Assembly (NCBI GenBank): GCA_019236695.1
Contig: JAFAIN010000121.1
Span: 1-38,873 of the forward strand
Length of the DNA stretch: 38,873 nucleotides
Source of the DNA: Acidobacteriota bacterium
GTDB taxonomy: Bacteria > Acidobacteriota > Terriglobia > Terriglobales > Acidobacteriaceae
Reading direction: 5' to 3'
Part shown: positions 9,103 through 27,802 of the stretch, in pieces
Layout of the letters: each line of letters begins with the position of its first letter
Position numbering within the stretch: position 1 is the stretch's first letter
Notes under the pieces: generated by a model
What the model was told of the DNA's origin: nothing
Database searches by the model: none
Seen by the model: only the letters and a program-made list of their open reading frames with translations
Made by a program: the position numbers and the translations under genes

Positions 9103-9196
9103 CAATTCGGCAACTTCAAATTCGGCAGTTCGGCAATGCTTCCGGTTGAGAACTGAAACTCGAAGGGTGAGAGCTAGATTCGGCAATTTCAGAGTC
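9103..9196. repeat. Degenerate copy of the CAATTCGG/CAGTTCGG repeat family, overlapping the 3' end of the next CDS
   Basis: caattcgg at 9103, aattcgg|cagttcgg|caatgctt at 9119-9141, further 'attcggcaatttcagagtcggcaa' at 9178. Confidence 0.65.
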
Positions 9197-11260
9197 GGCA
9201 ACCCGGGAATTCCAATGGGCGGCCATCGCCAGTGCCTGCCGTGCGCCCACGCGCGGCGTCCATTGCAGTTGATTGCGAGCCGCAGTGACGTCGAATGGAG
9301 AAAGCGGCCGGATGGAGCGAATGCGATAGCGCGAGAGCGGCAGCGGGCGCTTCAGTGCCCGCTCGGCGGCCTCGCACACCAGCGCAAGTGCGCCCAGCAC
9401 CAGGGGAGAGACGTAATGGACCTTGACTTTGCCCTGCAGGTAAGGCTGCAGAGCGGCAATATACTCGCGCTGCGTCACCGTTTCGCTATCCACGATGTTG
9501 AAGATGTGCCCCACGCAATCCGGTGACACCGCGGCTCGCTGCAGCGCATCCACAACGTCATCCACATAAACCAGGGGCAGCAGGCGATCGCCATTGCCCA
9601 CTACGTTCCACCGGCCGGCCAGCCCGATTACCCCCGAGGGTGTCACGAGCTCCGCACCTGGGCCGAAGATCTGCCCGGGCCGCAAAATCACTGCCGGCAG
9701 GCCGCGCTCTTCCATCGCCGAAATCACCATGGCTTCGGCCTGCAGCTTGGTTTGCGTGTACAGGCCGCGCCTGGCGGGGAACGGCTCGTAAGCGGAATTC
9801 TCGACCACCGCGACCCGCGGATCGCGCCCTGCATGGTCGAGCACGCTCAAGGAGCTGACATAGACCATGCGCTTGACGCCGGCGGCCAGGCAGGCTTCGA
9901 TGACATTCCGGGTGCCGCGGACAGTGCCGCGCTCGAAATCAGCGGCGGCGCCCTTCATCGCCGCTCCCACGTGGTACACGGTACTTACGCCTTCTACCGC
10001 GCGGTTGACGATTTCGGGGTCGCCAAGGTCGCCGCAAACCGCCTGTATTCGGGGATTCGTTTTCCACTCCGCCGGAATGCGGCGTACCAGGACCCGCACC
10101 GTGCCCGGCTGCTGCAGCAGACGGCTGACCAGCCGGCGCCCCAGAAATCCGGCTGCGCCCGTAACCAGCACAGGAGCAGGCGCAGGCGGCCTTAATTGCT
10201 GGCGGCGGTGCTCGTTTTTCAACTGGTCGGCACACGCGCAATCGCGCTCCATCGCGGCTATCACGCGGCGCCCTTCCTCGCCCGGAGTTTCCACCGGGGT
10301 GCCTTTCAGCAGCGCGTCATAGAAGCGATGAATGCAAACATGGATTCCGGGAGCTCCTTGCAGGCGCCCGGTCAAAAAGCGCAGCACGTTTACCGGAACC
10401 TGCACCAGGTCGGCGCCGGCTTTCTTCAGCGCGCCGAACACGTTGGTGAGGAATTTCGGCCCGGGCAGCGTACGAACCACGCGGCACGTCTGCAGGAAGC
10501 AATCCACATGGATTACGCCACGCGTGCCCGTTACGGTGATCTCGCTGCGGATGGGGCGCGCATTCCACGAGATGTACATCTGGCCCACGCCGCGGTCGCA
10601 ATCAACCGTGGCGCGCCACTCGTCGAACAGCAGGTTGGCGTCGAGCCCGGTGGAGCGGAAATCAAGCGAAGCGCCGCGCACCTTGCCCAGAAATGATTCG
10701 CAGATGGCGAGCCCGTGCACGCCCAGGTCCTGGAATGGATAGCTGCCCTTGCGGTACGGCGACGGCATAGGACCGCCCATGTATGGGGGATAGTCCGAGC
10801 TGCGCACAAACTGCACTGAGAGAATCTGGCCGCAGGCGCCGCTCGCGGCGATCTCCGCTGCCTGCAGCACCACCGGGTCCATGCGCGCCGAATGGTTCAC
10901 CGCAAGCACGCGCCCCGCGCGTTCCGCGGCCGCAATCATGCGTTCGCAATCGGCTTCCGACTCCGCCATGGGCTTTTCCACAAAAACATGGCAGCCCGCA
11001 TGCAATGCTTCCAGAGTTACGGCGCAATGCCACTCCGGAGGCGTCAGCACATGCACCACGTCCGGGCGTGTGGCCGCGGCCATTTCGGCAAAGCTGGCGA
11101 ACGCGGCGGGAATTCCGAAAGTCCCTGCCACGGACTCCGCGCGCGCGCGATCGAGATCGGCGATGCCGACGACCTCCGCCGAGGCAACAGACTTGAGCGC
11201 GCGCAGATGATGAGCGCTCACATAACCTGCGCCGATGATGGCAACTCTTAGCTTCTGCAT
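9116..11260 (-). CDS. Fusion: Gfo/Idh/MocA oxidoreductase (N) + NAD-dependent epimerase/dehydratase (C)
   Basis: N-term 'RVAIIGAGYVSAHHLRAL...HVFVEKPMAESEADCERMI' (GxGxxx and EKP motif); from about 10185 down a second Rossmann fold 'VLVTGAAGFLGRRLVSRLL' with 'YTQTKLQAEAMV' (YxxxK). Confidence 0.92.
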   Translation of the reverse strand: MQKLRVAIIGAGYVSAHHLRALKSVASAEVVGIADLDRARAESVAGTFGIPAAFASFAEMAAATRPDVVHVLTPPEWHCAVTLEALHAGCHVFVEKPMAESEADCERMIAAAERAGRVLAVNHSARMDPVVLQAAEIAASGACGQILSVQFVRSSDYPPYMGGPMPSPYRKGSYPFQDLGVHGLAICESFLGKVRGASLDFRSTGLDANLLFDEWRATVDCDRGVGQMYISWNARPIRSEITVTGTRGVIHVDCFLQTCRVVRTLPGPKFLTNVFGALKKAGADLVQVPVNVLRFLTGRLQGAPGIHVCIHRFYDALLKGTPVETPGEEGRRVIAAMERDCACADQLKNEHRRQQLRPPAPAPVLVTGAAGFLGRRLVSRLLQQPGTVRVLVRRIPAEWKTNPRIQAVCGDLGDPEIVNRAVEGVSTVYHVGAAMKGAAADFERGTVRGTRNVIEACLAAGVKRMVYVSSLSVLDHAGRDPRVAVVENSAYEPFPARRGLYTQTKLQAEAMVISAMEERGLPAVILRPGQIFGPGAELVTPSGVIGLAGRWNVVGNGDRLLPLVYVDDVVDALQRAAVSPDCVGHIFNIVDSETVTQREYIAALQPYLQGKVKVHYVSPLVLGALALVCEAAERALKRPLPLSRYRIRSIRPLSPFDVTAARNQLQWTPRVGARQALAMAAHWNSRVADSEIAESSSHPSSFSSQPEALPNCRI

Positions 11261-12696: not shown

Positions 12697-15057
12697 CTAC
12701 ATCCGCATTTCCGAAATCGTCACGCCCTTGCGCCCGCCCTCGCGCGCCGCCTCAATTAACCGTGGAAGCGCCTGCAGCGCGGCTTCATTCGTCCCGTGAT
12801 AGAGGATGATGTCACCGTTCACGATCGGCTTGGCCTCCAGCCGGCTGGTGATCTCCTCAGGAGTGGCTGCCTTGAAATCTTTGGGATCGACGCTCCACAT
12901 CACGAAACGCTCCCCCTCTCGAACGCTGGCGTAAAGCGAGCGTAGCGCCAGCCTGCCGAACGGAGGGCGGAACAGAGTGCATGGCCGGCCCTGAACCTGC
13001 TCGATCAGCCGCGCTGTCATGGCCACTTCGCGCATTGCTACCCGCCACGGCATCGTGCTCAACCGCGGGTGCGAGTAGGAATGATTTCCCAGTTCGTGCC
13101 CCTCGCTGAGAATGTAACGGGTCAGTTCCGGCTCTTCCTCAATGCGATTTCCGATCAGAAAGAAAGTGGCTTTCAGCGAATGCTCTCTCAGGATTTCGAG
13201 AATTCGCGGAGTGAACACCGCGTCGGGCCCGTCATCGAAGGTCAGCGCGAATTGCGGCACATCCCGGCGGCCGTTCCACACCAGTGCCCGCCTGGGGTAC
13301 ACCGCTTCAAACAGCCGCTTCAGCAGACGCCGCGCCCCAGAAGCCGGGAACTCTGCGCGATAGCCGTAGCTGGCGCGCCCGGCGAACAGGCTGCCACCGT
13401 ACTGGTCCTGGGCGAACTGCTGCGCCGCCGCTCCGAGTGCGCCGCGCAATTCCGCGTCATCCAGAACCGATTCCAGGGCCGCCACCAGGGCGTCCGTATC
13501 CGCCCCGGCCGCCACCAGCCCGCACCGGCCCTGCACCAGCACTTCGGCAACCAGCCCGGAATTCATCGCCACCACGGTTACGCCTGCCGCCATTGCTTCC
13601 AGCATGGCCACCGGAACGGCGGAACTGCCCGCCGCCTGCACGTATGCGTCAAAGGCCGGCAGCCATGGTGTGTAGTCGGGCTGCTCGCCGGCAAAAAACG
13701 CATCGTCGATGAACCCGGCGCGCTCGGCGAATCGTCGCGCGTCATCCACCGCCGGGCCGGCGCCGATGACCACGAGGCGAAGCCGGTTCCGCGAGCGCCA
13801 TAGGCGCTGAAATGCTGTCATTACTTCCTGCAATGTTTCCGTGTTCCGGTTCGCGCAGCACCCAATGATCAGGCTGCCCGGATACAGCTTGCGAAACTCC
13901 GATCCCACGGTTGGCGTGTCATGTTGTGGGGGTGCGGAGACAGAACGCCCGTCTGTGTTTCTCGGGGAACCGCCGGAGCCGGCCGCAAGGTGATCCGGAT
14001 TCTCCAGGTCAACGCCGCTGGAACTATGGTCGGTTACCGCATGCTGAGCGGTTGCGAGTTCCGCCCGGAAGGCCGCAAAAGTCCGGCGGATGCCTTCTTC
14101 CGTCGAGATCGGTTGCTGCCACCCGGCATTCTTCAGCTTTGAGTTGTCGAACCCGTTCCCGGCCCACATGCTGCGGACCTTGTAAGGAGTGAATACCGCA
14201 GGCAACTGGCCCCTGGAATAGCGGTGGTACTTCTCCATGCCGAATGCCAGGCCGAGGAAGAGAGGATATGGCACGTGCCAGGCACGCAGCGGGCGAACCT
14301 CGCGGCAATACTGACGGAAGTACTGGCGGCAGGTCGGAATATCGTCGTCCACCACGTTGAACACCTGTCCGGCGCTTTCGGGCGCGAGGCCGGCCGTCAC
14401 GATGGCCTCGGCGCAATTCGGAGCGTAGCTGAGCGGCAGGCGGTTGCGCCCGCCGAGGTATACAAAACGTTCTCCCAGCGGCAGTCCTACGCGTGTTGAA
14501 AAGTGCCCGCCGCCTGGGCCGTAGATCACCCCGGGCCGGAACACCACCAGCTCGAATCCGTTTTTTTGCTGGTATTCCCAGAAGAGCTCTTCCTGCCGCA
14601 GCTTCGTATAGGCGTATGGGTCGCGCCGTACCGGCTCGGTTTCGAGCGGCGTATTCTCGTCGATCTTTGCACCGCGCCCCAGTCGGGCCACTCCGTAGAC
14701 GGCAAATGAGCCGATCAGCACAACCCGCATCCGCCGTCGCCCCACCGCCTCCAGCAGGTTCCGCGAACCGACCACCGAATCCAGGAACAGGTCGGCAATC
14801 GCGCCCCGCATTCCCGAGGCCAGGTGAATCACCGCATCCGCGCCGTTTACCGCCGCGCCAATGTCGTCGGGCGACTTCAGATTCCCGGCTGTGTATTCAA
14901 TGTGCGCATGGCGATATCGTGCGGCCACGGTTTCAATGCGGCCTCGCTTGTTGCGGTCGCGCAGCATGCATCGCAGGTCCGTGTGGCCGTTCGCCAGCAG
15001 GCGGTCGATCACGTACGTGCCCAGAAAGCCCCCCGCCCCGGTGACCAGAATCTTCAT
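12697..15057 (-). CDS. Triple fusion: NAD-dependent epimerase/dehydratase + GT4-type glycosyltransferase C-terminal half + CE4 polysaccharide deacetylase
   Basis: Start taken at 15057 (MKILVTGAGGFLGTYVIDRLL). Epimerase with 'YAYTKLRQEELFW'; central 'AYVQAAGSSAVPVAMLEAMAAGVTVVAMNSGLVAEVL' (GT-B C-terminal domain); C-term 'FALTFDDGPDAVFTPRILEIL' + 'HELGNHSYSHPRL' (NodB homology). One uninterrupted frame. Confidence 0.88.
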   Translation of the reverse strand: MKILVTGAGGFLGTYVIDRLLANGHTDLRCMLRDRNKRGRIETVAARYRHAHIEYTAGNLKSPDDIGAAVNGADAVIHLASGMRGAIADLFLDSVVGSRNLLEAVGRRRMRVVLIGSFAVYGVARLGRGAKIDENTPLETEPVRRDPYAYTKLRQEELFWEYQQKNGFELVVFRPGVIYGPGGGHFSTRVGLPLGERFVYLGGRNRLPLSYAPNCAEAIVTAGLAPESAGQVFNVVDDDIPTCRQYFRQYCREVRPLRAWHVPYPLFLGLAFGMEKYHRYSRGQLPAVFTPYKVRSMWAGNGFDNSKLKNAGWQQPISTEEGIRRTFAAFRAELATAQHAVTDHSSSGVDLENPDHLAAGSGGSPRNTDGRSVSAPPQHDTPTVGSEFRKLYPGSLIIGCCANRNTETLQEVMTAFQRLWRSRNRLRLVVIGAGPAVDDARRFAERAGFIDDAFFAGEQPDYTPWLPAFDAYVQAAGSSAVPVAMLEAMAAGVTVVAMNSGLVAEVLVQGRCGLVAAGADTDALVAALESVLDDAELRGALGAAAQQFAQDQYGGSLFAGRASYGYRAEFPASGARRLLKRLFEAVYPRRALVWNGRRDVPQFALTFDDGPDAVFTPRILEILREHSLKATFFLIGNRIEEEPELTRYILSEGHELGNHSYSHPRLSTMPWRVAMREVAMTARLIEQVQGRPCTLFRPPFGRLALRSLYASVREGERFVMWSVDPKDFKAATPEEITSRLEAKPIVNGDIILYHGTNEAALQALPRLIEAAREGGRKGVTISEMRM

Positions 15058-16157
15058 CGGTTGCCTCCCACCGTCAGCTTTTTCGGGTACACCTGGGCAA
15101 ACACTTCGTCCATCAGCGCGGCCACGCGCAGCATTTCGGAATAAGGAATCGGCAACGGAGCCTCTTGCAGAATGCTTTGGTAAAACATGGAAAAGAGCAG
15201 GCGCATGCCCGCAAAGAACTGGAACCGCGAGCCGGCAAAATCCCTGCAATTACGCAAGCCCTCGCGGAAGTAGTCCCAGCCGTACTGCAGGGGAGGGAAC
15301 AGGCGTCCCAGCGCGCTGGGAAACTTCTGGGCCCGGTCGAGCACTACGGTTCGCAGCGCATAGTCAACCCGCGCCGTAGCCTTGGTTCCATATACTCGAG
15401 CAAAATGCCCTAACGGCATGGCATTTGAGCAGAAAGTGGCATAGGCAGAGACTCCGCCGGCCTGCATCATCACCCGCAATTCGTCCAGCGGCGCCGTGGG
15501 GTGGTTGAACCGCCGGAACGCGGAGGCGTGCACCGCGGTTGGCCCTTCGGGAAGCAGGGGGACAATCTTGTTGAGCGCGTGATCAATAATGTTGTGAAAG
15601 AGCTGGCCGGGCAGCCGGTGGACCCAGTGATTGGAATCGGCCAGCAGCGCTTGTCCGAATGCGCTGCCCAGGTTGTAGCCGTAGTAGCTCTCGATGTGCA
15701 CAACCTCGCCCAGCAGGCCTTCCTTTATCATCTGGCGGAAGCGCACTGCTTGCGAATCGAAGTTGGGCCAGTAATTGATCGTCATCTTGCGCCCGGCAGC
15801 CTGCACCGCCGCCACGATCTGCCGCGATTCCGCGGCATCCATGGCCAGCGGCTTTTCTACGACTACGTGCGCCCCGGCAGCGACCGCTTTTCTTGTAAGC
15901 TGCAGGTGTGATTGTGGCGGGGTCGTAATGTGCACTACATCGAGCTGCTCGGCGGCGAGCATGCGGTCAAAATCGCTGTAGGCGTTCGGAATCCCATGGC
16001 GCTCGGCAAACTGCCCCGCCATCAGCGGCTCGATATCACAGGCGGCGGCCAGCCGCGCGCCCGGAATCGTTCCGATCTCCTCCGCGTGGCCGTCGGCAAT
16101 CTTGCCGCAACCTACAATGCCGGCTCGCAACGTGCGAATTGGTTCCTTACTCGACAT
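15054..16157 (-). CDS. Gfo/Idh/MocA family oxidoreductase
   Basis: 367 aa; 'RAGIVGCGKIADGHAEEI', 'HVVVEKPLAMDAAESRQI'; overlaps downstream gene start by 4 nt (ATGA). Confidence 0.93.
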   Translation of the reverse strand: MSSKEPIRTLRAGIVGCGKIADGHAEEIGTIPGARLAAACDIEPLMAGQFAERHGIPNAYSDFDRMLAAEQLDVVHITTPPQSHLQLTRKAVAAGAHVVVEKPLAMDAAESRQIVAAVQAAGRKMTINYWPNFDSQAVRFRQMIKEGLLGEVVHIESYYGYNLGSAFGQALLADSNHWVHRLPGQLFHNIIDHALNKIVPLLPEGPTAVHASAFRRFNHPTAPLDELRVMMQAGGVSAYATFCSNAMPLGHFARVYGTKATARVDYALRTVVLDRAQKFPSALGRLFPPLQYGWDYFREGLRNCRDFAGSRFQFFAGMRLLFSMFYQSILQEAPLPIPYSEMLRVAALMDEVFAQVYPKKLTVGGNR

Positions 16158-18599: not shown

Positions 18600-18790
18600 A
18601 ATCTACAACCTACGCGAAAGGTTACTTTCCTGAAAGGTTACTTAGGTTTGCGGCGAAATGAGCAAAACCATTGCGAAAGTAACTTTGGTAACTGGACCAC
18701 GCGCCGCGGCAGGCATCCAGCTAGTTAGCCGGCCGGCCATCGGTCTTCCTTTTTGCCGTTGTCTCGACGTAACTTTGGTTTACGCCGCTT
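18600..18790. promoter_or_regulatory. Candidate regulatory region between divergent polysaccharide operons, with repeated GAAAGGTTACTT / GTAACTTTGGT motifs
   Basis: gaaaggttactt at 18616-18627 and 18632-18643; gtaactttggt at 18679-18689 and 18769-18779; near-palindrome aaagtaacttt at 18676-18686. Confidence 0.45.
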
Positions 18791-18851
18791 CTTGTCGCCC
18801 CGGGGAAACCGCATCCTTTACCTGCTATTCTCGCCGCAGGATTATTTTCTC

Positions 18852-20423
18852 TTGAGCGCTGCAGCCACGAGTGAGAGTCCGGCCAGCCGGTCCAAAGTCG
18901 CCCAGAATTTTGCCTGGACGGCTCTGGAAATGATCCTGCTCACGCTGGGTACCCTGGCGGTCGGCATTGCCGTGGCGCGAACCATCGGGCCGCGGCGCCT
19001 TGCCTATTTCAACTATGTTTACTGGCTTACCACTGCGGGCAGCCTGCTGGGTTGCATGGGTATCCCGGGTACTACGTTCAAATATATGGGCGAGTTGTTG
19101 GGCAGCGGCGAGAACGGCGCCGCCAGGGCAGTGTACCGGCATACCTTGCGCCTGCAGGCCATGATCGCAATCGTAATCGCCTCGTGTGGCCTGGTGGCGG
19201 TGCTGCTGTGGGGCGACCCGCAGTATCGCCTCGTTTCTCTGCTCATGGTGGTCAGCGTGGTTCCGCAGATGCTGGGCTTTATCCCCTCGCAGGCCAACCG
19301 CGCCGCCGAGGATTTTCGCGCCAATACGCTTGCCTCGCTCGGCGCCGAATTCCTCAACATGGCCGGAATTGTAGCCAGCCTGCTTCTGCACTGGAACCTG
19401 GTGGGCATAGCCGCCACCATCCTGCTCTGCCGCACTGGCGAGTTCATCGGCAAAGCGGCTGCCGTGAGCCGCAGGCAAAAAGGCTTTCCCAACATTCCGT
19501 TGCCGGAGCACCTGCGGCGGCGCATGTGGAACTTTACCGGCCTGGGTACCGGCCTGCTGCTGCTGCAGGTCATCGTGTGGGACCGCTCCGACATCATCTT
19601 TCTCAAATGGCTGGCGACAGACATTCGCCAGGTGGCCTTCTTCTCAATTTCCTTCACCCTCGCGGACCGGCTGCTTCAGATTCCGCAGGCCTTCGGCAGC
19701 GCGGTGGGCGCTACTCAAATGGCCGAGTATGGCCGCGACCGCCAGAAGTTGTTTCGCATTACCGGCGTGGCCGGCATTTACGTACTTATGGCGGCTATGC
19801 CCATGCTGGTCGGGGCGGCGTGCCTGAGCGCCCCATTGGTCAGCACGATCTACGGCAGCCAGTATCTCCCCGCTATCTCGGTTTTTACGCTGGTCGCGAT
19901 CCTCGCCATTCCGAAAGCGGTGCTGGCGCCCGCGCAGAGCCTTCTGTACTCCACAGAGGAACTCGGATTTCTGCTGAAGTGGGGCTGCCTGTCGGGTGTC
20001 GTCAACATCGCGCTCGATGTGCTGCTCATCCCGCACATGGGCGCTCGCGGCGCGGCGCTGGGCAATGGCCTGGCACAGGCGGTGGCGGCAGTCGGCATAT
20101 GGTCGCGTGCCTTCTGGCGTCATCCCGTCAGGATTGACGTTAAGGCGGCGCTGAAAGTGCTTGCCGCCACGCTGTTGATGGTGGCGGTCGTGGTTCCCAT
20201 TGCCCGCAGCGGCTGGCCCGGTCCCCTGAAGCTGGTCCTGGGAATTGCGGCAGGCGCGGTTGTCTACCTCTCCGCCATTCGCATTCAGCGCGTCTTCTCG
20301 CGCGAAGACCGCCAGCGCCTGGTTTACGTGACCATGAAAATCCCGAAGTTCGTCGGCAGGACCGCCATCCTGCTGGTCAACTTCATTGCACCCGTCCCAA
20401 GCACGGTGGAAGCGAGCTCCTGA
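18852..20423 (+). CDS. Polysaccharide flippase / oligosaccharide transporter (Wzx/MATE-like)
   Basis: 12+ TM-like protein; 'VAQNFAWTALEMILLTLGTLAVGIAVARTIGPRRLAYFNYVYWL', 'IPHMGARGAALGNGLAQAV'. Start probably TTG 18852; ORF open from 18753. Confidence 0.87.
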   Translation: MSAAATSESPASRSKVAQNFAWTALEMILLTLGTLAVGIAVARTIGPRRLAYFNYVYWLTTAGSLLGCMGIPGTTFKYMGELLGSGENGAARAVYRHTLRLQAMIAIVIASCGLVAVLLWGDPQYRLVSLLMVVSVVPQMLGFIPSQANRAAEDFRANTLASLGAEFLNMAGIVASLLLHWNLVGIAATILLCRTGEFIGKAAAVSRRQKGFPNIPLPEHLRRRMWNFTGLGTGLLLLQVIVWDRSDIIFLKWLATDIRQVAFFSISFTLADRLLQIPQAFGSAVGATQMAEYGRDRQKLFRITGVAGIYVLMAAMPMLVGAACLSAPLVSTIYGSQYLPAISVFTLVAILAIPKAVLAPAQSLLYSTEELGFLLKWGCLSGVVNIALDVLLIPHMGARGAALGNGLAQAVAAVGIWSRAFWRHPVRIDVKAALKVLAATLLMVAVVVPIARSGWPGPLKLVLGIAAGAVVYLSAIRIQRVFSREDRQRLVYVTMKIPKFVGRTAILLVNFIAPVPSTVEASS

Positions 20424-22031
20424 ATGGCATTCTTTCTCACTCTGCTCTACGTCGCGCTGAATTTCTTCCGCCCGGAAGAATTGCTCCCTGACGTTGTTCA
20501 GTATCACCCCATGCTGGTTCTGGGCGTTCTGTGCCTGCTGGTGAGCGTTCCCACGCTGCTGGCTTCTGACACCGCGAAGAAGTCGCCGCAAGGCATCCTG
20601 ATGCTGGTGTTTCTGGCCGTGGTTGCGCTTTCCGAAATATTCAGCGGATGGTGGGGCGGCCTCAACGAGGTGTACACCCACGTTGCGCCCAGCGTGATCT
20701 GCGTGTTCCTGATTCTGGCCAATGTGGATACCTTGTTCCGCATCCGCGCCACCATGATCACTCTTCTGGTGTGCTCCGCCGTGCTGGTCGGGCAGGGAAT
20801 CGCCGGCTACTACACCGGCTACGGTTGCGACAGCGTCACCCGCTGGGCTGAGGACCCTGACAACGCACATTGCAAGTACGCGATGCAGCAGTACTCCTTC
20901 ACCACCGACGAGTCCGGAGAGCACCGGGGAGGGTTCATCTGGCGAATCCGAAGCGTGGGCGTGCTGGAAGATCCCAATGATTTTGCCCAGTTCATGCTCG
21001 TTCTCCTGCCTCTGGTGTGGATTGCCTACCGTAAACGTCACGCTTTCCGCAACCTGTTCGTGGTTTTCATCCCCACCGCGTACTTCCTGTACGGCATGTA
21101 CCTCACGCGATCGCGCGGAGGCCTCATCGGGCTTGGCTTCCTGCTGTTGTTTGCCTTCCGCAAGCGCCTGAACACGGTGAACGCCACGCTGCTCTCTGCC
21201 TTCGCCGTCATCGGGCTCGTTGCCCTCAATTTTGCAGGTGGCCGCTCCATGTCCGCGGCTGCCGGCGCCGACCGTGTCGCCGCCTGGCGCGATGCTTTCA
21301 TGACTTTCCGCAGCCATCCCATCCTGGGTGTGGGCTTCAACCGCTACAACGAGTACGCGCCGCTCACCGCGCACAACTCCTTCCTGCTGTGTGCGGCTGA
21401 ACTGGGCCTGGCCGGCCTGCTGGTGTGGATTGCGTTGTGGTATGTGTCGCTGGCCGACGTGAACCGGTTCCTGAAGTGGGCGCCATCCATCGCCACCTCG
21501 GCGCGCAAAAAACTCGCCTCGCCCGCCTACGCCTCTCCGTTTCTAACGCGGCAACCGGCCATGGCCCTGGCCGGAGGCGGCATCGCTACGGATGACGAAC
21601 TCGATGCCCCTGATCGCTTTCCCGGGGAGCGTATGGAACACGATGAAATTGCCGCCGCCACCGAAGATTGGAACGATGACGGCAGCGTCCACAGCCCAAA
21701 CCAGGGCCAAACCGATCGCGAAGGCACTATTGACGGCAACAGCGAAGCTGCGGCCGTTTCAGAGCAGCAGTCCGGCATTATCGCCACCTGCCAGCGCTAC
21801 GCCGGCGCGCTCCAGATGTCGCTGATCGCATTCCTGGTTACCGGCTGGTTCCTGTCGCGCACCTACGTCGTGCTTCTGTACATCCTGCTTGCGCTTGTTG
21901 TGGTGGTCGGCGCGCTCGCCGACCGCGAATCGGGCGGCCACTTGCCGGAACGCAAGCCGTGGGCCCGCAATGTGGTGCTGACCACGATAGCTACTCTCGT
22001 CGTTATTTGGGTCTGGCTGAAAATGTTCTGA
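20424..22031 (+). CDS. O-antigen ligase/polymerase (WaaL/Wzy-like) family membrane protein
   Basis: Multiple TM; 'NDFAQFMLVLLPLVW', 'YLTRSRGGLIGLGFLLLFAF', 'FMTFRSHPILGVGFNRYNEYAPLTAHNSFLLCAAELGLAGLLVWIAL'. Confidence 0.9.
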   Translation: MAFFLTLLYVALNFFRPEELLPDVVQYHPMLVLGVLCLLVSVPTLLASDTAKKSPQGILMLVFLAVVALSEIFSGWWGGLNEVYTHVAPSVICVFLILANVDTLFRIRATMITLLVCSAVLVGQGIAGYYTGYGCDSVTRWAEDPDNAHCKYAMQQYSFTTDESGEHRGGFIWRIRSVGVLEDPNDFAQFMLVLLPLVWIAYRKRHAFRNLFVVFIPTAYFLYGMYLTRSRGGLIGLGFLLLFAFRKRLNTVNATLLSAFAVIGLVALNFAGGRSMSAAAGADRVAAWRDAFMTFRSHPILGVGFNRYNEYAPLTAHNSFLLCAAELGLAGLLVWIALWYVSLADVNRFLKWAPSIATSARKKLASPAYASPFLTRQPAMALAGGGIATDDELDAPDRFPGERMEHDEIAAATEDWNDDGSVHSPNQGQTDREGTIDGNSEAAAVSEQQSGIIATCQRYAGALQMSLIAFLVTGWFLSRTYVVLLYILLALVVVVGALADRESGGHLPERKPWARNVVLTTIATLVVIWVWLKMF

Positions 22032-22050: not shown

Positions 22051-23145
22051 ATGAAGATTGCGCACGTCATATATACGATGGAACGCGGAGGAGCCGAGCG
22101 CCTGGTCGCTCTGATGTGCCGCATGCAGCGCGAGCGGGGCGATGCCCCCGCCATTCATTGCCTGCATGCTGTGGGCGCCTTCGGCGAAGAACTGGCGGCC
22201 GAGGGTTTTCCCGTCGTTTTGCATGGGCCTGCCGGGCTGCCGCATTACTTCATCAGCCTCTACCGCGAGTTTCGCCGTTACCGGCCTGACGTGGTGCACT
22301 GCCACAATGCCACCCCGACCATTGCCGGCGCTCCGGCTGCGCGGATTGCTGGCGTGCCCTGCGTTGTGGCCACTCGCCACCAGTTGGTTGCGCCGCCCCA
22401 TAACTGGCGCCGGGAGCTTAAGTTCGCCCTCGCTTCTCGCTTCTGCCATTGGAATGTGGCCGTCTGTGAAGCGACGCGCCGCAACCTGCTCAACAGCGGG
22501 CTCGCTCCCGAGCGTTCAACCGTCACGATTTACAACGGCGCAGAAGGTCCGCGCCGCCTGGAAGAACAGCGCGCGGGAAGTTATTCCGCTGCGGGCGGGT
22601 TCACCTTCGTTCATGTGGGCAGGCTCGTGCCTGAAAAAGATCAGCGAACCCTGCTGAAAGCTTTTGCCATGGCGCAGAAAATTCGCCCTGAGCTGCGGTT
22701 GCAGATTGTCGGCGGAGGTGTGCTGCAGCAGGAGCTGCTCTCATTGGCCCGCGAGTTGGGACTCAATGGCAATTTTGAGTTCTGCGGCGAGCAGCGAGAT
22801 GTCGCCCCCTTTCTGCTGAATGCCGATGCCTTTGTCATGTCATCCGTATCCGAGGGCCTGCCGGTTTCCCTCATCGAGGCCATGTCGGCCGGGCTGCCTT
22901 TGATCGTGACCGATGCGGGCGGCATGGGCGAAGTAGTGAAGCTGGCGCGTGCCGGCATCATCGTCCCTCCCGGATCCCAGGAGGCTCTGGCCGCCGCCAT
23001 GGTTGAAGCCGCAGCCAACCCGCGGAAAACCGAGCAACTGGCCGCTTCGTCGCGCGCTGCTTATCTCGCCTACTTCCGGCCTGAAGCCATGCTCGACGGG
23101 TACAACCGGCTTTATGCGTCTGCCTTGCGGGAGGCCCACGCTTGA
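22051..23145 (+). CDS. Glycosyltransferase family 4
   Basis: 'YTMERGGAERLVALMCR', 'FVHVGRLVPEKDQRTLLKAF', 'VMSSVSEGLPVSLIEAMSAGLPLIVTDAGGMGEVV'. Confidence 0.95.
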   Translation: MKIAHVIYTMERGGAERLVALMCRMQRERGDAPAIHCLHAVGAFGEELAAEGFPVVLHGPAGLPHYFISLYREFRRYRPDVVHCHNATPTIAGAPAARIAGVPCVVATRHQLVAPPHNWRRELKFALASRFCHWNVAVCEATRRNLLNSGLAPERSTVTIYNGAEGPRRLEEQRAGSYSAAGGFTFVHVGRLVPEKDQRTLLKAFAMAQKIRPELRLQIVGGGVLQQELLSLARELGLNGNFEFCGEQRDVAPFLLNADAFVMSSVSEGLPVSLIEAMSAGLPLIVTDAGGMGEVVKLARAGIIVPPGSQEALAAAMVEAAANPRKTEQLAASSRAAYLAYFRPEAMLDGYNRLYASALREAHA

Positions 23146-24383
23146 TTGCCGCCCCTGAGCTGCTGGAGCCTCAAGCCCAGCCGGCCGAAATTACCTGCAC
23201 CATCGTTCGCGATGAAGCCGGGCTGGATACGGTCGCCGCGGAATGGGGCGATCTGCTCCGCCGTGCCGCAGCCGCCCGCCCACAGGTGTATCACACGCCC
23301 GCATTTCTGCGTTACGTGTTGCGCAACCGCCCCGAAGCCCAGCCCTACGTGGTGTTGATGTGGCACGGGGGCGAGTTGCTGGGCCTGGCGCCGTTCCTGT
23401 TCGAGGCTACGCGGTTTCGCGTGCGCTTCAGCGTGCGCACTCTGGCCCGCCCCAGCGGCCGCAGGCTCCGCATGGTGGCTGCCGGCCCCTTATTCGCGCC
23501 CGGCGCGCCCGCCGGGCAAATGGCGGCGATCCTGCTCCAACTGCTCTTCCGGCAGCAAACGGATTTCGATTTTGCCTACCTGGAATGGCTTTTCCTCGAC
23601 GATCCGCTGCTGTTTGAGCTCGAGCAGAACAACCGTATCAACCTGTTCGTGCCCCCCGCTCAGCGCCAGCTCTGCCGCCAGGTTATCCTCGAGGGCGATT
23701 ACGAGCAGTACACCGCCAGGTGGCCGAAGAAGATTCGCCAGAACTATCGCCGCCATCGCAAGAAGCTGGAGGAGCACTGCGAAGGCGATGTCCAGATCCG
23801 TACTTATACTTCACCTGCGGATCTGGTGGAGTTCGCGGAGCATCTCGACACCATCTTCAATCGCACATGGCAGGCCCACACCTACGGCCGGCGCAAGCGC
23901 AATACGCAGGGAGAAATCGATTCCCTCGCCGCCATCGCCGAGCAGGGCTGGCTGCGCTCTTATGTGCTCATGTGTAAAGGTGCGCCAGTAGCCTTTCAGC
24001 ACGGCTTCGAGTTCATGGGAGTCTACCAGGGAGAAGAAACCGGCTACGATCGCGATTGGGCGCGCTTCGGCGCCGGCTCGGTGCTGCTCGATTCCGTCGT
24101 AAGAGATCTGTTCAGCACGGGGCGCGTTCACGTGCTCGATTGGGGATTTGGCGACAGCGAGTACAAGCGCGAGTTCGGCAATGCTGAGCGCCCCGCCTGC
24201 CAGGCTTACTTCGCCCTCAACCCCAAGTGGAAGTCCATTCTCAGAGGCCAGGCCGCCGCTGATCGGGTTTACCGGTTCGGCCACAGGATCGTTTCGAAGG
24301 CCGGCATCGCCAAGGCTATCCGCGCCCGGCTCAAGAACAAGAAAGCAGTGCCTGCAACTCAGCCCGCCGCCAACGGAGAGTAA
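23142..24383 (+). CDS. FemAB/GNAT-like N-acyltransferase (Acetyltransf_6 / BioF2-like)
   Basis: 'YHTPAFLRYVLRNRPEAQPYVVLMWHGGELLGLAPF', 'WPKKIRQNYRRHRKKLEE', 'QGEETGYDRDWARFGAGSVLLDSVVRDLFSTGRVHVLDWGFGDSEYKREFG'; TTG start overlapping upstream stop by 4 nt. Confidence 0.85.
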   Translation: MIAAPELLEPQAQPAEITCTIVRDEAGLDTVAAEWGDLLRRAAAARPQVYHTPAFLRYVLRNRPEAQPYVVLMWHGGELLGLAPFLFEATRFRVRFSVRTLARPSGRRLRMVAAGPLFAPGAPAGQMAAILLQLLFRQQTDFDFAYLEWLFLDDPLLFELEQNNRINLFVPPAQRQLCRQVILEGDYEQYTARWPKKIRQNYRRHRKKLEEHCEGDVQIRTYTSPADLVEFAEHLDTIFNRTWQAHTYGRRKRNTQGEIDSLAAIAEQGWLRSYVLMCKGAPVAFQHGFEFMGVYQGEETGYDRDWARFGAGSVLLDSVVRDLFSTGRVHVLDWGFGDSEYKREFGNAERPACQAYFALNPKWKSILRGQAAADRVYRFGHRIVSKAGIAKAIRARLKNKKAVPATQPAANGE

Positions 24384-24453
24384 AAGCCACAGTCAACGGG
24401 CTCGCGGGCGGTTTCCACCGGGTGAATCCCCACGCCTATGGGATACTGGCGCC

Positions 24454-24960
24454 GTGGGCGTCATCTTTCTCTCCGGTCCCGTGGGAGCGGGCAAGACGGC
24501 CGTAGCCCAGGCCCTGCTGCCGCTGCTTTCCGGCCCTGTTTCCTGCATCGAGGGCGATACATTCTGGACATTCATCAGGGATGGAGGAGGCCGCCGGCTG
24601 CAGGAGAACTTTCCGGTGCTGGTACGGTCGATGACTGCGGCGGCAGTCCCGTTCGCGCGCTCGGGCTTTCAAGTCATCATCGATTTTTCAGTGCCGCCCG
24701 CGTACCTTCCCACCGCCCGCAAGATCCTGAAGGAGGTGCCGCTCGATTTTGTCCTGTTGCGGCCGAGCCTTGAGGTTTGTGTGCAGCGAGCCGCTTCGCG
24801 TGCCCAGGGCGCCATCACTGATTACGCGATGTTGAAGGATTTTTACGCCCGCTTTGAAGAAGGCAGTATCCAATCGCTGTGCGATGACCACGCCGCCCCG
24901 GCCCTACTTGCCCGGCAGATTGCCGATGGCCTGGCTCAGGGGCGGTTCCGCGTTCCCTGA
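24454..24960 (+). CDS. Small P-loop kinase / AAA-type ATPase of unknown substrate
   Basis: GTG start; Walker A 'GPVGAGKTAVAQAL'; 168 aa with CPT/zeta-like small-kinase layout; the longer ORF from 24148 overlaps the preceding gene. Confidence 0.65.
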   Translation: MGVIFLSGPVGAGKTAVAQALLPLLSGPVSCIEGDTFWTFIRDGGGRRLQENFPVLVRSMTAAAVPFARSGFQVIIDFSVPPAYLPTARKILKEVPLDFVLLRPSLEVCVQRAASRAQGAITDYAMLKDFYARFEEGSIQSLCDDHAAPALLARQIADGLAQGRFRVP

Positions 24961-24973
24961 GCGTTGTGGCCCT

Positions 24974-26752
24974 TCATCGCGCTGCGCTGTTCCGCCACCG
25001 CGCCAATGCCTCGACGCGTTTGCGGATATGGCTCGCAGCCTCGCGGAAGTGCTCGAGTGATTCGCCGAACGGGTCGCGAATTTCCATCACCGGGCGCTCG
25101 CCGAACAGGCCGAGGAAGGTGGTCTTGTTCAGCGCCTCGGGGAAGTGGCTCCACAGAAAACGGTAGTTGCCGGTGTCCATCACAATGATCAGGTCATTGC
25201 GGTCTAGCATTTCCCGGGTAACGCGCTGTGACCGGTGCCGCGAAAGGTCAACCCCGCATTCCGCGGCCACGGCCAGCATCTCGGGCACACTGCCGCGGCC
25301 TTCCACCCGGTAGCCGCCGGCCGAATCCATACGGCATTCCGGCATCAGTCCGCGCGCCAGCTCCGCGGCCAGCGGGCTGCGGCAAATGTTTCCCCAACAC
25401 ACGAACAGCACGGTTTGCGCTTCGCGGCAGCGCGAGAGCACGCGTGGGTGGTGCACCAGGCGAACATAGGGGCCGCGCAGCGGCAGCCCCAGCCGGATCC
25501 AGGCTTTGCGCGCCATCCGGTCAATCTGGCGCAGAAATCCGGCGCCTCGCCCCAGCCACTCCGCCAGGATCCGCCACAGCACGCGGACGGTCACGCGAAG
25601 ATCACGCCATGAGAAATGATCCCAGCTTTCGCGTCCCCACAAGGGACGCGCCAGTTCGGCCACCGAGCGCAGACGCGGCCGCGTGAGCAGCAGCGGATCG
25701 TCGTGGTAGGCCTTCAGGTTTGCCACCTGCCACTTGACGTCGCGCTCCAGGTTGCGGGTGAAGTGCCCGGCGCGGTATGCCGGTTGCGGAGGCAGCGGCT
25801 GCCCGGTTGCCAGCATCAGCAGCCCGGCGGGGAAATCCACTCCGGCGTCAATGGCCAGCGCCAGCGAACCCCAGAACCGCGGATTGATCTCGACCAGATA
25901 CGCTGCGCCGCTCTCCGTGACCTTGAACTCCACCATCGCAACGCCGTGCCAGCGCAGGCGCCCGAGCAGCCGGCGCGACATATCGAGCAGGTCTTGCGGC
26001 AGCGGGATCGATTTTCGATAGCTGCTGCCGCCGCCGGTCAGCGGATACTCGTGCACGCGCTCATGGGCAAACGCCCAGCGCAATTGGCCGTGCTCCAGCA
26101 GGCATTCGATACCCACCCCGCGGCCGGCAACATACTCCTGCTGCTGAAAATCCAGTTCCGGCTTGGCCTCGAGCGCGGCCGCCCACTGCTCGGCGTTGCG
26201 CGCGATGACAACGCGATGCTCCAGCGTGTGCTCTCCCTGCAGCGTTTTCGAGTGCACCGGCTTCAGGACCACGGGGAACTCCGCGGGCGGGCGGGCGCCC
26301 ATGCGCACCACTACGCTGGCCGGGGTGGGAATCGAAAGCTCGCGCGCCGCCTGCCAGGTCGCCTCTTTGCTCAGAGCCGTTCTCAGGCCCTCGCGGGGGG
26401 CCAGCATGGCCCGCTCGCGCAACTCGGCCGGAGCGTCCGGACCGGCAAAGCACAGCAGAGAAACTTCCGTCGCCGGTATGATCAGGTCATAATCGCGCCA
26501 GCCGATTTGATCGAGCCAGGGTAGAAGGGCCGAGCCTCCGGGCTGGATCAGCTTGCGATGCGCGTAGCGCGAGACAAATGCCAGGGAGCCGGAGTTTGCG
26601 GAAGCTGCATCGACCCGCGCCCCAAACCGGCCCAGGCTCTGTACGCACTCCACGCCGGCGGCGCAGTCCGAGTCCAGCACCAGCACTCGAGCCTGCTTTC
26701 GTGCGGATGGTTCAGACACAACCACCTCGGGCTCTGTCACGGCTGGTGACAA
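24974..26752 (-). CDS. Fusion: ATP-grasp ligase-like domain (N) + low-molecular-weight protein tyrosine phosphatase (C)
   Basis: N half 'FPVVLKPVHSKTLQGEHT...VAMVEFKVTESGAAYLVEINPRFWGSLALAIDAGVDFP' (ATP-grasp); C half 'VLFVCWGNICRSPLAAELARGLM' (CX5R) with C-term 'VMEIRDPFG' (DP motif). Confidence 0.9.
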   Translation of the reverse strand: MSPAVTEPEVVVSEPSARKQARVLVLDSDCAAGVECVQSLGRFGARVDAASANSGSLAFVSRYAHRKLIQPGGSALLPWLDQIGWRDYDLIIPATEVSLLCFAGPDAPAELRERAMLAPREGLRTALSKEATWQAARELSIPTPASVVVRMGARPPAEFPVVLKPVHSKTLQGEHTLEHRVVIARNAEQWAAALEAKPELDFQQQEYVAGRGVGIECLLEHGQLRWAFAHERVHEYPLTGGGSSYRKSIPLPQDLLDMSRRLLGRLRWHGVAMVEFKVTESGAAYLVEINPRFWGSLALAIDAGVDFPAGLLMLATGQPLPPQPAYRAGHFTRNLERDVKWQVANLKAYHDDPLLLTRPRLRSVAELARPLWGRESWDHFSWRDLRVTVRVLWRILAEWLGRGAGFLRQIDRMARKAWIRLGLPLRGPYVRLVHHPRVLSRCREAQTVLFVCWGNICRSPLAAELARGLMPECRMDSAGGYRVEGRGSVPEMLAVAAECGVDLSRHRSQRVTREMLDRNDLIIVMDTGNYRFLWSHFPEALNKTTFLGLFGERPVMEIRDPFGESLEHFREAASHIRKRVEALARWRNSAAR

Positions 26753-26779: not shown

Positions 26780-27802
26780 ATGTTACAGTCGATTCTAATG
26801 TCGAAGCGAGAGTTGCTGGTACGGCTTTCCGCCCTCTCCGGCGTTACTTACGTGCTGGAGAAGTTGGGCCGGCCGTCGGTTCTTGTCCTGACTCATCATC
26901 GCATCGGGGACGCATCCGGCGAGCCATTCGACCGCGCCGTTTTTTCCGCCTCCGCGGAAGAATTCGAAGCGCAGCTGAAGTATGTGAAGCGCCATTTCAA
27001 GGTACTGGCGCTGGAAGAATTGGAAGAAATTCTCGATAGCCCCGCAACCCTCCGCCATCCCGCAGCGCTGATTACCTTCGATGATGGATACATCGATAAC
27101 TACACCACTGCGTTTCCCATCCTGCGTTCGCTGGGCGTTCCCGCCACATTTTTCCTAGTAACCACCTATGTCGGCAGTTCCACCGTGCCGTGGTGGGACG
27201 AAGTGGCATACAGCATCCGCCATAGCAGCAAACCAAAATTGCGGCTGCGCTATCCGGCTGAATACTCGGCCAGCCTGAACGGCAACCGCGAAGCCGTGAT
27301 CCATGCCGTGCTGCGGCATTACAAATTGCCCGGCAATCAGGACCAGAACCGGTTCCTGCAGGAACTCGAAGAAGCAACCGGCGTCAACCGCCCCGCGGCC
27401 GTTCCCCAGCGCTTCCTCTCATGGGATGAGGCACGCGAGATGCGGGCTCATGGCATGAGCATCGGCTCACATACGTATACGCACCCGCTTCTGGCGCAAC
27501 TCCCTGCAGAAAAACAACTCTTTGAGCTTGAGGCTTCCCGGCGTGAGACCGAAGCCAGGCTCGGCGCCGCGGTTACCGCGCTGGCATATCCCGTCGGCAA
27601 GCCCACCGCCTTTACCGCCCAGACCGAGGAATGCGCGCGCCAGGCTGGCTATCGCAGTGCCTTTGCTTTTGATGGCGGCGTCGTAAACCCCGAACGCTTC
27701 GAGCGAATGCGCCTGCCCCGCTTTGCCCCATCCGCAATTGCAGGCCAATGCCGCTTCGAATTGGCCACGGCCGCAGCCCTGCGAAAACAGTTGTTCGGAT
27801 AG
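26780..27802 (+). CDS. Polysaccharide deacetylase family protein (CE4)
   Basis: 'ALITFDDGYIDNYTTAFPILRSLGVPATFFLVTTYVG', 'GMSIGSHTYTHPLLAQLP'; start may be 26798. Confidence 0.93.
   Translation: MLQSILMSKRELLVRLSALSGVTYVLEKLGRPSVLVLTHHRIGDASGEPFDRAVFSASAEEFEAQLKYVKRHFKVLALEELEEILDSPATLRHPAALITFDDGYIDNYTTAFPILRSLGVPATFFLVTTYVGSSTVPWWDEVAYSIRHSSKPKLRLRYPAEYSASLNGNREAVIHAVLRHYKLPGNQDQNRFLQELEEATGVNRPAAVPQRFLSWDEAREMRAHGMSIGSHTYTHPLLAQLPAEKQLFELEASRRETEARLGAAVTALAYPVGKPTAFTAQTEECARQAGYRSAFAFDGGVVNPERFERMRLPRFAPSAIAGQCRFELATAAALRKQLFG

Follow-up and report, generated by a model that had tools for sequence, protein, structure and literature searches.

Wzb-type low-molecular-weight protein tyrosine phosphatases (LMW-PTPs) belong to the standard machinery of capsule and exopolysaccharide (EPS) control, and to our knowledge the signal that tells them when to act is largely open. 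The class is recognised by a CxGNxCRS P-loop, containing the nucleophilic Cys and the Arg, and by a DP motif in the D-loop (PMC7948962), while the presence of Thr or Ile at one P-loop position decides between phosphoarginine (pArg) and phosphotyrosine (pTyr) in YwlE/PtpB (PMC8001253). How such phosphatases drive EPS output is shown by VpsU/VpsO (PMC7485978). In the DNA studied here an LMW-PTP is instead found joined to an ATP-grasp domain. Both domains are well known singly. No paper describing the fusion architecture, or ATP-grasp proteins in exosortase loci, was found in the CC-licensed literature, which omits most subscription journals.

The fusion is encoded on the minus strand of the window, by which we mean the whole analysed stretch of 38,873 nucleotides, and can be divided as follows:
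24974..26752, (-) strand: ATP-grasp/LMW-PTP fusion protein, 592 aa; single open frame, two Pfam domains above cut-off, 13 full-length homologues in the family
25790..26690, (-) strand: ATP-grasp domain with N-terminal pre-ATP-grasp part, residues ~21-320 (ATPgrasp_Ter, PF15632, at 205-319, 43.6 bits, cut-off 29.1; AlphaFold2 model with Foldseek matches to 3vot/PurK; K164, E288 and N290 invariant)
25415..25735, (-) strand: helical, cationic inter-domain segment of low confidence, residues ~340-446 (pLDDT ~50-80; charge count; no stretch of transmembrane strength)
25001..25411, (-) strand: LMW-PTP domain, residues 448-583 (LMWPc, PF01451, 83.8 bits, cut-off 23.2; Wzb/YwlE in the PDB; catalytic residues invariant), with P-loop CWGNICRS at 452-459 and D-loop DPF at 560-562

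The start codon is TTG, with a AGGGGAGAG-like Shine-Dalgarno motif read in the sequence ~8 bases 5' of it. Searching the PDB with phmmer matched residues 446-585 to the LMW-PTPs YwlE (E 2.4e-17) and Wzb (E 2.6e-16), and residues 165-312 to the ATP-grasp protein 2pn1. The AlphaFold2 model, built on an alignment of 13 homologues, has a mean pLDDT of 84 and shows a complete ATP-grasp fold in its N-terminal part; Foldseek gave the L-amino-acid ligase 3vot as the top match (E 1.3e-14), and PurK was also matched by the N-terminal part. In combination, the single frame, the two Pfam domains, the PDB matches and the model bear out the proposal of an earlier note on this DNA that an ATP-grasp domain and an LMW-PTP reside in one protein, and the motifs quoted there (VVLKPVHSK..., EINPRFWGS, CWGNICRSP and a late DP) are all exact. 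A chimeric assembly or chance frame is ruled out by the 13 full-length homologues together with copies on Vibrio plasmids.

Inspection of both active sites, as the earlier note had proposed, showed all catalytic residues to be present and invariant across the 13 aligned fusions, i.e. K164, E275, E288, N290 and R292 in the ATP-grasp half and C452, G454, N455, R458, S459, D560 and P561 in the PTP half. From knowledge of the ATP-grasp family we take K164 to be the ATP-binding Lys and the Glu/Asn residues to be Mg-binding. The PTP half carries both LMW-PTP motifs, as C452 W G N I C R458 S and D560-P561, albeit with a DPF D-loop that has no Tyr after DP; most relatives have DPY, and the aromatic ring is kept. 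The P-loop and the short W-loop are those of a protein phosphatase of the Wzb type, with Ile at the pTyr/pArg switch rather than the Thr of YwlE/PtpB (CTGNTCRS). An arginine phosphatase, suggested by YwlE as the best PDB match, is consequently disfavoured. In one subset of fusions, referred to as group B, the P-loop is without its second Cys and reads CxGN[IM]MRS, or CHGNIIRS in one case; most members of the group have Met in its place, so the usual redox control would be lost there.

The model is poorly ordered at residues 1-17 and in much of ~340-440, and displays no ordered interface between the two active sites. Residues 379-445 hold 15 K/R against 4 D/E. A membrane anchor in the linker is ruled out; as judged from its sequence, the protein is probably cytosolic and soluble, no part of it being as hydrophobic as the membrane controls.

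The earlier note had also called for a search for the two-domain architecture, and this revealed that it recurs within the family, fused or as neighbouring genes, and in fused form on plasmids of Vibrio alfacsensis. Full-length fusions were found in 13 of the 398 other family genomes (399 with the window's own), at 46-48% identity to the window protein in five, 36% in one and ~30-33% in seven. One further copy (L138, genome G616) is broken by a stop and a frame change, and the deacetylase still adjoins it. An even sample of the phylum yielded no further full fusion, but several of its genomes have ATP-grasp and PTP genes close together. In V. alfacsensis, a member of another phylum, plasmids encode fusions of 592-596 aa with both Pfam domains above cut-off (WP_322805275.1/WP_128813648.1); the domain order is identical to that of the window protein at ~26% identity, and public records label them only 'ATP-grasp domain-containing protein'.

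Among the family genomes, 22 of 25 unfused PTP matches lay ≤6 kb from an ATP-grasp gene, an association that is indicative and carries no formal test because the search considered no more than three candidates in each genome and the count was made by hand. These neighbouring PTPs, at mostly 205-283 aa, exceed the usual length and have an N-terminal extension resembling the inter-domain segment of group B. In the PTP tree the fused and neighbouring-gene PTPs mostly cluster (support 83), the same clade includes PTPs encoded by genes of their own, and the group B fusions are nested among unfused PTPs in a starred clade. The fused proteins occupy two distinct positions in the ATP-grasp tree, and a single origin of the fusion, judged by one ATP-grasp clade, was rejected (constraint to one clade, p-AU 2.7e-59). 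The trees would therefore fit either fusion on more than one occasion or an ancient fusion followed by several fissions, the ATP-grasp tree leaving the direction undecided. As the neighbouring PTP is mostly upstream or on the other strand, repeated fusion is favoured.

The fusion gene is flanked by genes of polysaccharide assembly:
18753..20423, (+) strand: polysaccharide flippase, Wzx type (PF13440, 26.9 bits)
20424..22031, (+) strand: Wzy/O-antigen ligase-like polymerase (PF04932, 49.9 bits)
22051..23145, (+) strand: GT4 glycosyltransferase, TIGR03088-like (XrtA/PEP-CTERM type), below cut-off (192 bits, cut-off 409)
23142..24383, (+) strand: FemAB-like GNAT (Acetyltransf_6, PF13480, 85.8 bits)
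24384..24960, (+) strand: P-loop kinase-like protein (AAA_33/CPT; PF13671, 33.1 bits), convergent, start uncertain
26780..27802, (+) strand: NodB-type polysaccharide deacetylase, divergent, 27 bp between starts (PF01522, 86.7 bits; synteny)

The 3' ends of the AAA_33/CPT and fusion genes are 14 bp apart. Elsewhere in the window, one 850-aa frame at 12697-15249 (-) holds NAD-epimerase, GT4 and polysaccharide deacetylase domains in series, and a 714-aa fusion at 9116-11260 (-) joins a GFO/IDH/MocA oxidoreductase to an NAD-epimerase. A NodB-type deacetylase adjoins the fusion in all eight group A loci (the window, G406, G524, G551, G486, G587, G613 and the broken G616), and overlaps the fusion start in several. 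In four genomes of one related genus the fusion is directly followed by an XrtA-associated-type ATPase and then a tyrosine autokinase; this kinase, two genes downstream of the fusion, scores 114.7-123.6 bits across the four, each time above the TIGR01007 cut-off, and an XrtA-type deacetylase above its own cut-off is also nearby. The V. alfacsensis fusion likewise sits in an annotated plasmid XrtA/PEP-CTERM EPS locus containing an annotated XrtA-associated tyrosine autokinase. The group B loci contain PAPS synthase, sulfotransferases, flippase, phosphopantetheinyl transferase (PPTase), a single-module NRPS, FemAB-like GNAT and deacetylase, and no BY-kinase was found within the ~9 kb fetched around loci of this sulfotransferase/NRPS type. 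A cluster at L177:1888-17930, conserved also at L155, L156, L159, L165, L166, L176, L178, L180 and L181, comprises PAPS synthase, sulfotransferases, flippase, PPTase, NRPS (C-A-T-TE), FemAB-like GNAT, deacetylase, ATP-grasp and LMW-PTP genes, and its product looks like an undescribed, sulfated and possibly aminoacylated one.

The statement of the earlier note that no Wzc-like kinase is visible stands for the window, but not for the genome, where the suggested check identified three BY-kinases (G000, L187-L189; contigs C121, C305 and C337), all above the TIGR01007 cut-off. Two of the three have C-terminal tyrosine clusters, and contig C305 also encodes an exosortase, an XrtA-type ATPase and a sugar transferase. 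With these kinases in the genome and one near the fusion in the related genus, the puzzle of the absent kinase dissolves. A scan of the genome contigs gave LMW-PTP matches only; no LMW-PTP besides the fused domain turned up in this genome, which is 88% complete, or in the relatives G551 and G613. It is not the only tyrosine phosphatase, a possibility ruled out by a CpsB/CapC-type PHP phosphatase above cut-off (175.9 bits; L204, G000 C30:8624-9334), and the fused PTP consequently need not serve all BY-kinases.

A polysaccharide role of the fusion is strongly supported by the locus context. For its mechanism we favour, with a probability of about 0.5, a tethered pair of enzymes: a carboxylate-amine ligase, with a deacetylated amino sugar as the unit it decorates, and a Wzb-type phosphatase resetting a BY-kinase. 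The protein would then be a soluble, cytosolic two-enzyme component of a Wzx/Wzy-type EPS pathway. Its ATP-grasp half would convert a carboxylate to an acyl phosphate and join this to an amine, most likely that of an amino sugar exposed by the action of the adjacent NodB-type deacetylase, and the repeat unit would thereby be decorated. The LMW-PTP half would dephosphorylate the BY-kinase/copolymerase at its C-terminal tyrosine tail, permitting polymerisation and export, and the tether would place the phosphatase with the decorating enzymes and link repeat-unit modification to the kinase cycle. We infer the amide product, the kinase as PTP target and the coupling of ligase to phosphatase: the ligase reaction is suggested by the fold, the residues and the deacetylase partner, and the phosphatase target by the P-loop type with Ile at the switch, the kinases of the genomes and the VpsU/VpsO precedent. 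Counted against this reading are the ~9 kb around sulfotransferase/NRPS-type loci in which no BY-kinase was found, the location of the kinases of the window's genome, all on contigs other than the window's, the CpsB/CapC-type phosphatase as another candidate for acting on those kinases, and the DPF form of the D-loop. The recurrence of the fusion hints that surface-polysaccharide decoration and export are controlled together. A checkpoint, in which occupancy of the ATP-grasp site by substrate or ADP would control the PTP and the BY-kinase would be reset, with export, only if the polysaccharide is correctly aminoacylated, is quite improbable.

The best-surviving alternative gives the PTP a metabolic role, the removal of phosphate from a small intermediate (a lipid phosphate, sugar phosphate or phospho-amino acid) that the ATP-grasp half produces or consumes; the fusion would then be a two-step enzyme with no signalling link. 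The persistence of the ATP-grasp association in loci without a BY-kinase nearby, the Met found in place of the second P-loop Cys in most group B fusions and the separate CpsB-type phosphatase of the genome are all consistent with such a function. It is nevertheless rather unlikely, considering that the PTP has a P-loop and a short W-loop of the Wzb type, that the best PDB matches are protein phosphatases, that ATP-grasp homologues are widespread without a PTP and that the active sites share no ordered interface in the model.

Alternatively, a BY-kinase could phosphorylate the ATP-grasp half itself, or the neighbouring deacetylase or glycosyltransferases, on tyrosine, the fused PTP reversing this in cis. 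The covalent tether, the repeated proximity of the PTP to ATP-grasp and deacetylase genes and the BY-kinases of the genome are compatible with this arrangement, yet it would be superfluous wherever the PTP is a separate gene, and we regard it as unlikely. A neutral merger of often-adjacent EPS genes through stop loss, devoid of functional coupling, would explain the interleaving of fused and split forms on the trees; retention of both active sites in separate lineages and in another phylum, and a neighbour order mostly unfit for read-through, make it very unlikely. The earlier note had offered two mechanisms, of which a phosphatase gaining a new tether or regulatory input is the better fit. 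A phosphate-dependent ligation or editing enzyme is not supported, given that ATP-grasp homologues without any PTP are common, that separate genes also encode same-clade PTPs and that the model is poorly ordered between the domains, although editing may still hold.

On the preferred reading of a ligase tethered to a Wzb-type phosphatase, the recurrent covalent link to a probable sugar-unit-modifying enzyme suggests one input to such phosphatases and offers a testable case. The otherwise unassigned ATP-grasp family of EPS loci also gains a firm set of partners in the deacetylase, the PTP and the FemAB-like GNAT.

Compared with XrtA/PEP-CTERM EPS loci, the window is alike in its TIGR03088-like GT4, FemAB-like GNAT, Wzy and deacetylase genes, and unlike in that its matches are below the family cut-offs and that the exosortase is on contig C305, not C27; in V. 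alfacsensis and the related genus the fusion lies within or next to loci of this kind, together with an autokinase, ATPase or deacetylase. With the ATP-grasp carboxylate-amine ligases (PF15632 ATPgrasp_Ter; PRK12767-like; BL00235, 3vot) the fusion has in common the fold, K164 and E288/N290/R292 (EINPRFWGS). It differs from the ATP-grasp ligases of known substrate, with 12-19% identity over the fold, by the added PTP domain and the deacetylase neighbour. With Wzb and VpsU it shares the CxGNxCRS P-loop, the DP motif, the Ile at the switch, the EPS locus and the presence of BY-kinases in the genome. However, Wzb and VpsU are stand-alone proteins of ~150-166 aa encoded beside their own kinase, whereas the fused PTP, which has no adjacent kinase gene in the window, is C-terminal to an ATP-grasp domain and carries a DPF D-loop.
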